This document shows, piece by piece, positions 56,601 through 63,357 of a DNA stretch of 64,000 nt (position 1 is the stretch's first letter; each line of letters begins with the position of its first letter). The position numbers and the translations under genes were made by a program. The notes below the pieces were generated by a model. The model was not told the DNA's origin and searched no databases. It worked only from the letters and a program-made list of their open reading frames with translations. The stretch is from Halichondria panicea (taxonomy: Eukaryota > Porifera > Demospongiae > Suberitida > Halichondriidae): NCBI RefSeq assembly GCF_963675165.1, contig NC_087389.1, positions 4,506,120 through 4,570,119 on the forward strand. The letters are read 5' to 3'.

Positions 56601-59475
56601 AGCAAGCCATGTTTGTTTGCTATCTACATGTACAACACAGTGACCTCTCGTCCTCACAGAGTGCTCCTGGTAAGAGGCCTATGGAGGTGCACAACGTGAT
56701 GATCAAGAGACATGCTCTAGAACTGACTACAAGTTTCATCATACCACTGGTAGGTGACCCCTGCGCGCGCGTGTGTGTGTGTGTGTGTGTGTGTGTCTAG
56801 GGGGGATTTCATCATACCCCTGGTACGTGACCCTGCTTGTGTGTAGATATTGGCCTGTTGTTCAGAGTTTAACACACGTACATGTACAATTGTCAACATC
56901 TTCATGTATGATTATGCTAAATTCTTAGTTGTATCTATATACATGCATTGTGTGATGGAATCATGTGTGTTGATCTTGATGGTACTTCTCTTATAGGAGC
57001 GCTATCTGGCTAGTCTGATGCCACTCAAAAGAGACGTATCACCTTGGAGAGTAAGTGGTGCTATAGTGTGCAGCTAACACAGTCCAGTGTAGCATGCAGT
57101 ATAATAATCATGTGTAGTAACCATAGTAACTATGTTATTGTAGCAGTGGTTTATAAAGTGGTGGCGGCCCTACTGTCACAGGGACATGTTGTGTAGCTTT
57201 GGGTGGTCCCATTACAACTTGATTGTATTGTAACGGGTGACATCCACTTATGGAGTGTCCACAATAGATATACACTACATGTTTACTGACAATTATGCTG
57301 TAAGGGACAATGTTTGTATTACATGTACTTGTACATATTTAGATATTGTATAGCGCGAAATTTCGCTGTTTTCGTGGGTTAGCAATCCTCTATGAAAATA
57401 ATTATTGTTAGAATTATCTGCTATAACGTGCAAAGATGTGGCTTCAGTAAGCAGTCAACACACAAACATTAAGCTTTTAGAGGCAGTTCCGCGAAATATA
57501 AAATTTTTTGCTATAGGGTATACAAATTATTGGTAGCTGCAAATTCCATGTGCACACTACAATACACAATGTCATGTACCTGTAGCCACCACCTCAAGTG
57601 AAGGTGTTTGACCTGCCCACGTTCCTGGAGACAGTGGAGGGGGCGGGGCCTCAGCTCACCACCGGGATCAAGGGCAACTGGACAGGATTATATAAGTGAG
57701 TAGGGTGGTCTGCATGTACATGCATGTATATAGTGACTAGTTACACAATAACTTGTTTAAAGCTGATTTACTGTTAATTACACCCTAAATGCAATGTACA
57801 TGTACCTGTACCCCCTTCCTTTCTTCCCTCATCCCAGACGTTTCGTTTTGTCCCCTAACTTTATGTCCTGGTTTGCTCTGAGGAAGGAGGAGGCTAACCA
57901 GAAACTGAGGCTACTCCATCTTGACACCCTCTGCAAAGCCGTGAGTTAATTAACTACCATCACCCATAGCCTTCACTTCATCATCAAGTATTCTTCGAAA
58001 GTGTCCTAACTTAAGTCCAATTTAAAGCGCATTCTGTAGCTCTCTTCATTGCGCAATCATACGATGTAATCACTCTCATAACTTTTGATCAAGCCAAGTT
58101 TTACCAAAAGACCCATTTTTATTATAGCTTAATGAAATTAGATTCAAAAATGACCTCGATAGACGTACATGTACAAGTCATGTATTTAGAGCTACAGTGC
58201 GTATAATTATACAGAATGCATGTTTTTACTTTTGAAATGCTAATTAATGTTATGGCCATGCAAAGGTAGCTTGTAATTATGCCTCATTGCGCGCAAGCGA
58301 GGCATACAATAGTGTGTCTGTGTGTCTGTGTGATACAGCTGCTCAAGGATCAATGAAGTGTAAGTAAGAGTTTCTATAGGCTTCTAGTCATGTTTTCTTG
58401 GATTTTAATCCGTGGATTTGCAAAATAATGCCTGGTGTTCTCGAGTTATGCCTACTTGGAATGCCAATGCAGCCTTTTCAGAAGAGTGCGTACCAAACTT
58501 GTCCATGGAGTGTTGCTACTCTACTTAGTACTTAGCTCTGCACTAGAACGCTATAGCTATTGGTAGCTGCAAGAGTGACTCTGCTGCTACATAGTGCAGT
58601 CAGACTTGGACTTTTGGCATCGATCATTTTAACAATTCTCATTAGTCAATCATTACCCACTCCTTGAGTTTCTCTGCATGCAGCAAAATTAATGCAAAAA
58701 TGTCATCATGATAATTATAATGTGTGTATAAAAGCTAATGTATAAAGTAGCTTTATGTTATGTAACTTTGACACCTCCACCGAGGCATCAGCACCTGCGG
58801 TGCATTCATTAGTAATGCACATGACTCACTATCAAGTGTAGAATTATTGTAAGTATTGTACATGCAAACAATTGTGGATACAATGCTATGAATGTGTGTT
58901 TGTGCTGTAGGACATGATGTTCTGGATGAGAGACAAAGCTGAGGTGGAGGTGGTGGACTTCCTGTTGCAGGTCAAGGACTGTATGGTACGTGCATGAGCC
59001 TCTGGGTTCTCATGGTATAGCTGAAATTTGCCCACAATGGCGGTCAGGGCTAGCCACCTCTATGGTTTATGTTTGGCATATAGAAGTGTTGTATGTTTCA
59101 GTATTGAACACTTGGGCACATCCCTGTTATGGTATTACTGTAAAACACACAGCAAAGTCCATGCATTAAAAAGTGCTTTCAGCCTGTATATGTATATATA
59201 ATTATTGGTCACTTTGCATTATCCTTAACATTAATTGCTTTTATAAATAATAATTATAGTCATGTCAGAACTATCATGCTAGTGCATTGTGTGTACTGTG
59301 CTGTCCTCTAGACTATCACCACACCCCCTCCATGCAGGCTGCTGCCTTTAAGAGCCATCCATCAGTACCCCAGCAGACGCTGCAAGCATTGCAGAAACAG
59401 ATCAGAACTGTACTTAGTAAATTACCAGAGGACCTTCAGTCATGTCTTACAACAACTTTCACTCTTTATCTCTGA
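51229..59475 (+). CDS. DENND6: DENND6 (FAM116) Rab guanine-exchange factor, 18 exons, 587 aa
   Basis: Exons: 51229-51393, 51717-51798, 52875-52987, 53426-53506, 53616-53666, 53729-53783, 53980-54059, 54304-54372, 54782-54828, 54887-54947, 55268-55425, 55792-56023, 56660-56749, 56997-57050, 57586-57695, 57838-57940, 58911-58985, 59338-59475. They sum to 588 codons with all phases consistent. Recognisable blocks: [131 protein letters not shown] proteins activate Rabs; vertebrate DENND6A acts on Rab14 in endosomal recycling. A 53-residue-class insertion ([11 protein letters not shown]...) precedes [11 protein letters not shown]. Microsatellites crowd the introns but none enters an exon. Confidence 0.94.
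53545..53614. repeat. (AC)n microsatellite abutting a splice acceptor
   Basis: About 35 AC units run directly into the CACAG acceptor of DENND6 exon 5. The run therefore forms the polypyrimidine-like region of the intron, which is unusual. A shorter AC run does the same for SPDL1 exon 6 (44911-44932). Confidence 0.85.
54559..54712. repeat. 53-bp minisatellite, three copies, DENND6 intron 8
   Basis: Three near-identical head-to-tail units start at about GAAGGATGGGGGGGAGGTGT and end CTCCCCTCCCTTAGTGTA. Each unit contains a G-run and a C-run that could pair. There are no unique spacers, so it is not a CRISPR array. Confidence 0.85.
58283..58810. repeat. Dispersed element, copy 2 (in DENND6 intron 16)
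   Basis: It matches 4671-5262 along its length with indels, in the same orientation relative to the plus strand. It begins GCCTCATTGCGCGCAAGCGAGGCATAC (imperfect hairpin) and ends near ACCGAGGCATCAGCACCTGC. It is a non-coding mobile element of unknown class. Confidence 0.65.
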
Positions 59476-59514
59476 CCATGCACTTTCAGTTTCAATTTGT
59501 TTTGTATACATGTA

Positions 59515-59822
59515 CAGTAGAACCTCGATTATCCGGACACCTTGGTTCCAGAAGCAGGCCGGATAAGTGAATATGTCGGATAATCGAATAGATAAACCAC
59601 GCCTTGATCCACCCACTTTATTGATGAACAGCAGTGCCACATGTTGTCTGCGCATGCGCAAAAGAAAAGCAGGCATGTCTCCATGGTAACAGCTGCAACG
59701 CGCATGCGCATTTGAGGGACACGCCCATTTTCTGAATTATGTAATCTGATTAAAAAGAAAACTGCCAAGCCGGATAATCGAGGTTCCGGATAATCGAGGG
59801 CCGGATAATCGAGGTTCTACTG
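59515..59822. mobile_element. 308-bp pogo/Tigger-like MITE, TA target
   Basis: It begins CAGTAGAACCTCGATTATCC and ends GGATAATCGAGGTTCTACTG, flanked by TA on both sides. CAGTAGAACCTCGATTATCC-type ends are characteristic of pogo/Tigger Tc1-mariner elements. Partial copies are at about 18880-18920 and 50371-50400. There is no transposase ORF. Confidence 0.75.
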
Positions 59823-60117
59823 TACATGTATGTATAGTTCTACAGAGAAAAAAACTTACAGAGAAGTAGCCTCGATTCCAGGCCGCACTGAAGTTGAGGC
59901 CTAGCTTGTGAAGGAGCCTAGCCTGTAGGCTAGTAGTAGCTAGCTATAGCTATTACTAAACAATAAAAGAAGTAGCCTTTAGCTACATGTAGTCTATATG
60001 TATAAGCTTAGTCCCGCAGACCAGACCCTGAAAGAGGACCTCACTGTAATAGACTATATATTGACTGATCATATCCATATCCAATATGGCAGTGGCATGC
60101 ATCTACTTCGTGCCCAG

Positions 60118-63100
60118 AATTGTTTAAAGTCCTTATGATTGGGGATGATTATTCAGGAAAAAGTTGCTTAATGAGTAGGTTTGTGTATGGTCACTTCAGA
60201 GAATCCATCAGTACCATAGGTGAGACTACGTTAAAAATGTCAATCATTGTACTAGATAAGCCTGTATAGCTACATACAGAAGATGCATGAGATGGCTAGC
60301 TAGACTATAGCTATAGACTAGCTAGTATAGTAACGTTATAGTGTATGTATTTAACATGTCACTGTCTGTACATGTACTCAAGGCGTTGATTTTAGTATGA
60401 AAACAGTCCGCAAGAGGTGAAGCTTCAGATATGGGACACTGCTGGATCTGAGCGTTTCCATGAAATTATTATTTCGTATGTTCAAAGGGCAGTGGTGAGT
60501 AGACAGTATATCATACTTCTCATACACATAAATCTTCACCACTGTTAAGTTACCAGTGACTTGTACCCCATTTTTGTAGGGGATAATGGTTCTGTATGAC
60601 GTTACAGACATTACAACATTCGTTAACATTAGAAGAATCTGGATAGACATGATACGAAAGGTTAGTCAGTGTTATTTTACTCATTTGGAGCTATACAACT
60701 CTTTTGACAGAATGGACTGGACAATGTGGTGATAATGTTCGTAGGAACCAAATCAGATTTGGTGGATCAAAAGGTGGTTTCTGAGGACATGGGGGGAGAG
60801 GTATGGTGTAGTACAGCCAAAGCTACTTCACTAGTACCATTTAGCCAGCATGATTGTAACACTATAATATTATTTTGATTTACAGCTTGCAGAGGAGTAT
60901 GGAGCAATGTTCATGGAAGTCAGTGCCAAGACAGGGCAAAATGTGAACAATGTAAGAAACAAACATTCTAATCTGTTGAGATGCAGCATCGCCAATAATA
61001 GTTCAATTGCCTCCTTTGCCAAATTTACCCCGCTATACGATAATACATGTAGTGCATTGGTTTTTCTTCTTATAGGCATTTCTGGAGCTGGCTTCAAGAA
61101 TCAACGTTATAAGAGGAGAAGCTATCCATATGGTTGGTCATAAGGTCAGTCTTCATTCGCTGATTTCATTTTCACACGTTTACTATTAATTTTCTATCAC
61201 TAGCAGACCTGCCCTAACTGCAATGGTCTCTTCACTGATCCCAAGATGCTTCAGTGTTTCCATGTCTATTGCAAGAAATGTCTCGATCGAATGGTTGTAC
61301 ACGACACTGAAAGAAGGAGCTCTATCACCTGTCCAATGTGCCTGCACACCACGTCTCTAGCTCCTTATGGTGTCAATGGCCTTGTGACAGCCTCCCACAT
61401 ATCACGACACAACGAAATGCACGAAGCTCTCAAGAAAATGAATGAGCCTCGAAGAATTGTCTGTGAGCAATGTTTAAGAAAAAGAAATATTGCAGTATGC
61501 TTTTGTCGCCAATGCTCCAAGTTCATTTGTCCGCAGTGCAGCGATGCGCACAAAGATTGGCCTGAGCTTCAACACCATGTTATTCTGACTATCGATGAAG
61601 CTAAAAACAATACGGAACTATTGCATTTCGATGAGCCGCAGAATTGCTTGAAACATGGCAAGAAATTACAGCTCTACTGTGACACATGCGGAGAACTTAT
61701 ATGTCAGCACTGCACTGTACAGATGCACAAAGATCATAACTATGGTGTGATAGCTGATACAATTGAGAGCCATAAGAAAGAACTCATGGATTCTATAACA
61801 CCTGTACGTCTTAATCAAGTCAAACCCAATAATATTATGTGTACATTTATTCAAGCTCAAAAAAATAACACAGAAACGTTGAAAGGTGAAATACATTCTA
61901 AGTTTGAGGAATTGCGGAAATTTCTTGATGAGACTGAAGCACAACTCACTGCAGATGTGGATGTGATAATGAAACAAGAGATAGAGAGCCTTGAGACGAA
62001 AAGAGACCAAGCTGAACAATTTCGAAGCCAGTGCATTAATTGTGTTGATTTTGTACACAATACCGTACATAGTGGTAAGGAAGGAGAGGTGTTGAAAAGC
62101 AAGCACCGAATAATAGAACAAGTTCGACAGTTGAGTGGACAGTTTGATCCTGATTACTGTGTAAAACCTGAAAAAGTGAACATTGGCTTTGCCCTGTCAC
62201 AAGACAGTTACAAAGTAATCTCAGAAGCTGCTAGTTTATACCAAACAAGGGTCACTGAAAAAGCAACTCGAATTGCCGAAGTTAAAAAGCGAGCAACAGT
62301 CGCACTCGAAATTCACGATCTGAAGAAAGAACCATTTTGCTTACCCACCTCAAATATTGATGCCACATTGGCTCTTAGGTTTGAAAAAGACCAAGTACAA
62401 CAGTGCAGCATCACTGAGCTAGAGAAGGGCAAGTATGAGATAGCCTACCAACCTGATGTCGCCAAACCCCACAATCTTTTCATCAACGTTAATAGAAACC
62501 CAGTGCATGGAAGTCCATTTCTTATTAACGTTTTACAATCTTTGGATAGAGCTCCTGTTAGAAGTATAACAAATCTGAATGGCCCAAGAGGAGTAGCTGT
62601 CAATTATAAAGGTGAAATATTTGTGTCCGAATCTGATAGCAAATGTGTATCGATATTTAGTCCCACTGGAGAGAAGTTGAGTACTATAACTGGAGAGGAC
62701 TCGAAACATGGTCCACTTGGCACAGTACGTGGTGTCGCTATGATTGCAGGAAATAAGATTATTGTATTGGATAGCGATATTCGTCTTGTAAGATTGTTTT
62801 CTCGAGATGGGAAAGAATTAAAAGTTTCAGAGCCTTTGTTATTCCAGTGTCCGAATGGTGTGTGTGTGAACAAAAGGCAAGATTCGGTGTATGTGGTCGA
62901 CCATTTAGCGCATTGTATTAAGAGGTTGAATCCAGATCTCTCAATTGCTTCTACATTCGGTAGTGCTGGACAGTTGGACGGAGAATTCAATTTTCCTTTC
63001 GATATTGCCATTGATTCTAAGAATAATGTTTACGTGACTGACACGGACAATCATCGCGTCCAAGTGTTCACTCCCGGTGGTAAATATGTGAGACAGTTTG

Positions 63101-63357
63101 GATCAGAAGGAACTGGCCCTGGAGAATTAAGAGGTCCGATTGGTATTTGTATTGATTCAAATAATCTTGTCTACGTTGGCGAGCTCCATAATAAGAGAGT
63201 GTCCGTTTTCACGATTGACGGTGATTTTGTGACATCTTTTGGCACGGAAGGTAGCGAGCTAGGACAGTTTGATGGACCATTTGGTTTAGCTATCGATCGG
63301 AATGGAGTGTTGTATGTTAGTGATTTTGGTAACAAGAGAGTTCAACTGTTTAGCTAA
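60118..63357 (+). CDS. Rab-like GTPase fused to RING/B-box/filamin/NHL (TRIM-NHL-type) protein; one frameshift in the GTPase
   Basis: Exons 60118-60219, 60383-60494, 60580-60660, 60711-60800, 60886-60951, 61076-61144 and 61207-63357. The GTPase part has P-loop GDDYSGKS, STIG, WDTAGSERF, VLYDVTD, GTKSDL and SAKTGQNV: all Rab motifs, with an aberrant P-loop and TKSD. Exon 6 (FLELASRINVIRGEAIHMVGHK) joins in phase 0 to TCPNC, the first cysteine pair of a C3HC4 RING. Two B-boxes, a coiled coil, a filamin repeat (KPHNLFINVNRNPVHGSPF) and about six NHL repeats to the TAA follow. Exon 2 is 112 bp where 113 are needed (between MKTVR and EVKLQIWD). The start codon was not found; an upstream exon is likely. 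RING/NHL proteins are E3 ligases and RNA or cargo binders. Confidence 0.8.

Follow-up and report, generated by a model that had tools for sequence, protein, structure and literature searches.

Results

Organization of the locus

The window, by which we mean the whole 64,000-nt stretch of Halichondria panicea DNA that was analysed (C13:4506120-4570119 of the 131.5-Mb assembly), carries on its plus strand six short Rab exons (E1 to E6) followed by one 2154-nt TRIM-NHL exon (E7), as delimited by translation (Table 1). GT-AG borders are present at all six introns of this set, whose lengths from E1 to E7 are 163, 85, 50, 85, 124, and 59 nt, and the first codon of E1 is split with an upstream exon. 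The exons of the Rab and TRIM parts are real, and their arrangement is unusual. Further upstream, the apparent last two exons of another gene can be recognized by eye at 58911-59476; this gene, which ends near 59476, matched nothing in Pfam or the PDB at E <=0.1. Between it and the Rab exons sits a MITE-like element (59506-59831) whose 31-nt ends (ATACATGTACAGTAGAACCTCGATTATCCGG) form perfect inverted repeats separated by 264 nt; it may have disturbed the promoter or first exon. Long minus-strand open frames are found downstream of the TRIM gene.

Table 1. Features of the Rab and TRIM-NHL exon set (positions are those of the window)
Feature	Position	Strand	Remarks
Rab exon 1 (E1)	60118..60219	+	LFKVLMIGDDYSGKSCLMSRFVYGHFRESISTI; covers the P-loop and the beginning of switch I; phase 1 at its 3' end
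Rab exon 2 (E2), 112 nt	60383..60494	+	GVDFSMKTV in one frame; frame break inside
Rab exon 3 (E3)	60580..60660	+	GIMVLYDVTDITTFVNIRRIWIDMIRK; phase 0
Rab exon 4 (E4)	60711..60800	+	NGLDNVVIMFVGTKSDLVDQKVVSEDMGGE; phase 0; TKSD versus NKxD of Rab1/Sec4
Rab exon 5 (E5)	60886..60951	+	LAEEYGAMFMEVSAKTGQNVNN; phase 0
Rab exon 6 (E6)	61076..61144	+	AFLELASRINVIRGEAIHMVGHK; last Rab helix and linker; cysteines absent
Rab-TRIM intron (intron 6)	61145..61203	+	59 nt, or 62 nt if the second tandem acceptor is used
TRIM-NHL exon (E7)	61204..63357	+	717 codons and stop
RING finger	61210..61341	+	zinc-ligand pattern complete
First B-box	61462..61578	+	
Second B-box	61645..61737	+	
Filamin repeat	62251..62520	+	
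NHL repeat region	62578..63351	+	start approximate

The TRIM-NHL exon lacks a start of its own

Pfam matches over the cut-off identify a RING, a B-box (two stretches), a filamin repeat, and NHL repeats (five stretches) in E7, in the TRIM-NHL order of RING, B-boxes, filamin, and NHL, and thereby confirm a sequence-only reading of this DNA, which had assigned all of these domains to a single exon. The best solved relatives of E7 are the NHL domain of TRIM71 (the top PDB match, at 1.2e-61), Thin, and TRIM2/3. The zinc-ligand patterns of the RING and B-boxes, starting at residues 3, 87, and 148, are complete, and their ligand columns are invariant in an alignment of the window copy with 13 of the 20 paralogs examined. 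In this alignment, the 13 paralogs agree completely at 93 columns, of which the window copy keeps 67; by this measure it ranks lowest among the 14 sequences. Relative to the base agreed upon by two paralog groups, it differs at 30/151, 44/277, and 18/28 sites at codon positions 1, 2, and 3, respectively, the third-position sample being small (28 sites). Read by codon position, these differences show purifying selection on the TRIM half, and the RING/B-box/filamin/NHL half appears, by its sequence, to be functional as a ligase.

An in-frame stop immediately precedes the open frame of E7, in which no Met occurs until residue 15, inside the RING and after Cys3 and Cys6; these two cysteines do not vary in any of the 14 sequences aligned (the window copy and 13 of the 20 paralogs). 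Because there is no ATG ahead of the RING, an intact RING needs phase 0 entry from an upstream exon. The family to which E7 belongs is large, with at least 70 TRIM-NHL matches from the best 62 of 303 candidates, and B-box matches in the genome number at least 150 (406 candidates). In each of the 20 paralogs examined, the open frame of the RING contains a Met 14 to 20 residues ahead of the RING (e.g., MAERPSAAQEALSKVEDQLS), as located by a script that searched this frame for the Met closest to the RING at a distance of 12 residues or more. Since the paralogs possess a start that the window exon lacks, the original start of the window TRIM appears to have been lost, with that of another exon used instead.

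The only recognized upstream exon that can deliver phase 0 entry is E6. Its donor (AAG/GTCAGT, score 8.4) can be paired with two tandem acceptors of E7, at 61204 and 61207 (scores 5.0 and 7.6), both of which give a phase 0 join. Intron 6 has a stop in frame and lacks a polyA signal. AATAAA or ATTAAA is found at 59962 and next at 62817, with none in between. Both the phase 0 join of the sixth Rab exon to the TRIM exon and the absence of a polyA signal between the two parts had been claimed from the letters of the DNA, and both hold. In-frame Mets within E3 to E6 are found at 60586, 60649, 60735, 60789, 60907, 60913, and 61130. The last of these, an ATG within E6, leaves room for a TRIM-only start, which would give MVGHK followed by the RING (MVGHK-QTCPNC).

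The upstream exons encode a divergent Rab

When E1 to E6 were joined with an X at a break in the reading frame of E2, the Pfam Ras profile matched at 5.6e-47 over profile positions 1-160 of 162; taken separately, the front piece matched this profile at 1.7e-9 and E3-E6 matched it at 6.2e-22. Chance origin is excluded on the profile match alone. The Rab part also matched the NCBIfam family small_GTP (4e-23), and its nearest solved chains in the PDB, again with X at the break, are Rab1, Sec4, and Rab8, so that by both Pfam and PDB it belongs to the Ras superfamily with Rab closest. The RabF motifs of Rab proteins are IGVDF, KLQIW, RF.., YYRGA, and LVYDIT. In the window, IGVDF, KLQIW, RF, and VLYDVT are present, YYRGA reads YVQRA, and IGVDF and KLQIW lie in different frames. 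SERF, which had been put forward as a Rab landmark, does not qualify as one, since Rab1 and Sec4 read QERF in the alignments.

The closest other matches to E3-E6, among the matches listed, are Rab-like genes on C10 that are 39-42% identical over these exons and are coded in a single open frame. The E5/E6 intron (NVNN/AFLE) has the same place and phase as the inferred intron (GTGAGC donor, CAG acceptor) of a gene on C9 (NVKQ/LFRR), which we take to be Rab6-like, and, on account of this shared intron place, the Rab exons look old rather than like a processed copy. In the homologous frames (E1, E2 from 60396 only, and E3-E6), 168 codons are free of stops (p ~1e-5, given the base composition of introns), which is evidence against long decay.

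The nucleotide motifs of the Rab part are not those of the Rab1/Sec4 type (GDSGVGKS, DTAGQ, and NKxD). Its P-loop, GDDYSGKS, had been described as atypical; this is correct insofar as Asp and Tyr stand where Rab1 has Ser and Gly, but the general GxxxxGKS consensus is retained. The two sites presumably correspond to Ras positions 12 and 13. G3 reads DTAGS versus DTAGQ, with Ser in place of what we take to be the catalytic Gln (Ras 61), and G4 reads TKSD versus NKxD in Rab1 and Sec4. The first changed P-loop site is Ser in Rab1, so the Asp counts for less than the Tyr and the lost Gln. In the alignments, switch I is 1 residue shorter and the beta2-beta3 hairpin 3 residues shorter (X included) than in solved Rabs. 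E6, which ends in a splice donor, contains no prenylation cysteines, in agreement with what had been noted earlier; no Rab prenylation end was found in intron 6, and a crude plus-strand scan of the readable downstream DNA for cysteine-ending frames gave no convincing Rab tail exon. Judged by its motifs, the Rab half is degenerate, with the P-loop, the Gln, NKxD, switch I, the hairpin, and the prenylation tail all altered or absent. By analogy with the Rnd and RhoH GTPases, it is predicted to hydrolyse GTP poorly, and nucleotide binding is uncertain given the shortened switch I and hairpin.

The Rab reading frame is broken in exon 2

Contrary to what had been supposed, the exon set as a whole does not splice in phase 0, since E1 ends in phase 1 and the frame breaks within E2. 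From E1, translation reads well into GVDFSMKTV of E2 and then into RKR and a stop (TGA); with the standard E1-E2 splice, this stop follows GVDFSMKTVRKR. Read in another frame from 60396, E2 gives YENSPQEVKLQIWDTAGSERFHEIIISYVQRAV, and the WDTAGSERF stretch (QEVKLQIWDTAGSERF) and every later exon lie in a frame other than that of GVDFSMKTV. There is consequently no single unbroken reading frame across the Rab, and an unbroken seven-exon frame from E1 to E7 is ruled out by translation.

The E2 acceptor is weak, at 1.4 versus 5.0-9.1 for the other accepted acceptors on a rough, home-made scale, and none of the 20 frame-compatible single GT-AG introns between E1 and E2 retains GVDFSMKTV. The best rescue, 60220 with 60415, scores 6.5 versus 10.6 for the frame-breaking pair and loses the beta2 stretch, and the alternatives 60239/60407, 60249/60396, and 60264/60396 (scores of -0.1 to 3.9) retain the P-loop and WDTAGSERF while replacing GVDFSMKTV with intron-coded residues. 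Among scored in-frame models that begin with an ATG and end at the E6 donor, 0 of the 14 best paths retain both the P-loop exon and WDTAGSERF; this gene-model search used rough, home-made splice and codon scores, and the first exons it proposed lack credibility. An upstream scan found no convincing start codon or first exon for E1, yielding either weak donors or better-scoring joins via long introns into the upstream gene. The E2 break may be an allelic or assembly matter, or it may be spliced around.

Comparison across the genome

A comparison of 111 GTPase matches with 98 B-box/TRIM matches, thinned by hand, found the window to be the only case, among the matches listed, in which a GTPase precedes a same-strand B-box by under 9 kb. 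The search with E3-E6 gave at least 49 matches at E up to 1, and, among the matches listed, none of these is on C3, which is the site of most TRIM-NHL relatives among the matches listed. At C2:991000-1000999, a divergent Rab-like gene lies ~9.6 kb upstream of a same-strand TRIM-NHL gene, as seen by tblastn only.

Discussion

A fusion of Rab and TRIM at the DNA level is likely. The in-line link between the two parts that the sequence-only reading had proposed is borne out by the splice sites, by the lack of a start in E7, and by the presence of one in all 20 paralogs examined. These features do not amount to an intact, normally working fusion, given the E2 break and the missing start, and a working Rab-ligase protein appears doubtful because of the frame break in E2.

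The reading that we prefer, with a probability that we would place just below one-half, is that of a single chimeric gene with a functional ligase half and a non-cycling Rab docking half. For such a gene to have arisen, a coding exon of the TRIM-NHL family, the examined members of which each occupy a single open frame at other sites in the genome, would have come to sit in or behind a Rab gene and would have been spliced to the exon for the last Rab helix, replacing the hypervariable and prenylation tail, with the loss of the TRIM's own start of ~20 residues. The RING/B-box/filamin/NHL part would then serve as a ubiquitin ligase, with the NHL propeller binding targets, and the Rab part would be at most a non-cycling docking module that positions the ligase without a lipid anchor. 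Should the E2 break prove to be fixed, translation would probably begin at an in-frame Met farther downstream, with 61130 and 60586 as candidates, and the product would contain only part of the Rab. The joint transcript, the ligase activity, and the docking role of this chimeric gene are what we infer from its layout. More tentatively, the prenylated Rab tail may have been swapped for a whole TRIM-NHL ligase, leaving a Rab domain that would be frozen because its catalytic residues are lost and that could act as a lasting address label, directing ubiquitin ligase activity to Rab effectors or to membranes.

Several features of the Rab half would also be expected if the fusion were old and the Rab were now a decaying leader, with E1-E2 broken and the ligase produced from a downstream in-frame Met or from another first exon. 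The frame break in E2, the lack of a convincing E1 start, the changes to the G1, G3, and G4 motifs, the shortening of switch I and the hairpin, and the seven in-frame Mets from 60586 to 61130 all point in this direction, as does the demonstration of purifying selection for the TRIM half only. However, outside the E2 break, the Rab exons are stop-free (168 codons, p ~1e-5) and have retained their GT-AG borders, so any decay would have to be recent. We regard this course of events as rather unlikely, and the same holds for its predicted product, a TRIM-NHL protein bearing either a remnant of the Rab or a new, short N-terminal piece.

It is less probable still that the locus comprises two adjacent genes, a Rab without a tail exon and a TRIM with either its own short first exon or a promoter in intron 5. 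The ATG in E6 and the MVGHK-QTCPNC that it gives would suit a separate TRIM, and a transcript retaining intron 6 would yield a Rab-only protein that terminates after VSLHSLISFSHVYY; against this, a polyA signal is absent between the parts, the splice sites are in phase, and a Rab prenylation end is absent from intron 6, with none that is convincing downstream in the crude scan. As for an artefact of assembly, in which two loci were misjoined or indel errors made the join or the break, the one frame break in E2 would fit, but the join falls within a 59-nt intron with matching splice sites, and the best other matches to either half are ~40% identical, with no second copy seen among the matches listed. 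We therefore consider an artefact very improbable.

The principle of a GTPase tied to a ubiquitin ligase is known from TRIM23, RhoBTB, and Rab40, and the combination of a Rab with a TRIM-NHL protein is apparently new. To our knowledge, Rab40 has no RING of its own, RhoBTB has no RING, B-box, or NHL, and ligases of the TRIM71/LIN-41 type have no GTPase. Proteins of this last type resemble E7 in their RING, B-boxes, filamin, and NHL. The 20 TRIM-NHL paralogs examined differ from the window copy in having their own short N-terminus, a piece that it lacks. Rab40 carries a SOCS box at its end, and no SOCS box is found among the families matched by E7 or the Rab part.

TRIM23 (ARD1), as described in the available portion of one account, has an N-terminal RING, two B-boxes, and a coiled coil, followed by an Arf domain in one chain; that account also describes Arf-family domains together with BTB or F-box domains and mentions recurrent recruitment into ubiquitin-dependent circuits (PMC8358228). 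TRIM23 is therefore like the window in placing a small GTPase and a RING/B-box ligase in one chain. As had been anticipated, the order differs: in TRIM23, the Arf domain lies last, behind the TRIM block, and NHL goes unmentioned in that portion of the account, whereas in the window, the GTPase exons come first, are Rab-like, and are followed by a part with filamin and NHL (PMC8358228). Excerpts of other accounts indicate that Rab40b takes part in a Cul5 ligase (PMC13236570) and that Rab40 is tied to ubiquitin ligase work via Cul5 (PMC4812663, PMC4359733). By these excerpts, Rab40 works via the Cul5 complex, whereas the Rab exons of the window run directly into a RING. RhoBTB, described in an excerpt as an atypical GTPase that can join a Cul3 ligase complex (PMC13236570), is a Rho, whereas the GTPase of the window is a Rab. 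The same source, in its available portion, describes Rnd and RhoH as constitutively active because of a change at the Gly12 position and, for RhoH, also at G3/switch II (PMC13236570); these are Rho family members, and the changed Gly12 position is their likeness to the Rab of the window. A Rab before a RING/B-box/filamin/NHL block is not mentioned in the available portions of the accounts of TRIM23, Rab40, and RhoBTB (PMC8358228, PMC13236570, PMC4812663), and a Rab-TRIM fusion is not named in any title listed by searches of the open-access literature for such a fusion, for GTPase-ligases, and for sponge TRIM-NHL.

Small GTPases have repeatedly been coupled to ubiquitin ligases, and a Rab that precedes a TRIM-NHL would add another independent example, in which the domain order differs. 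The genome offers a natural comparison between many TRIM-NHL paralogs with their own starts and one that has lost its start and depends on an upstream exon, and it could illustrate either a ligase gaining an N-terminus by exon capture or the decay of such a capture. Elsewhere in the genome, large tandem TRIM/B-box arrays are located on C3, C11, C5, C13, and C17, with many open frames of >700 codons. A cluster of Rab-like genes, each in one open frame, lies on C10 at ~2574600-2622600, where DTAGQERF is altered to DTAGHERF, DTAGRERF, and DTFGQERF.
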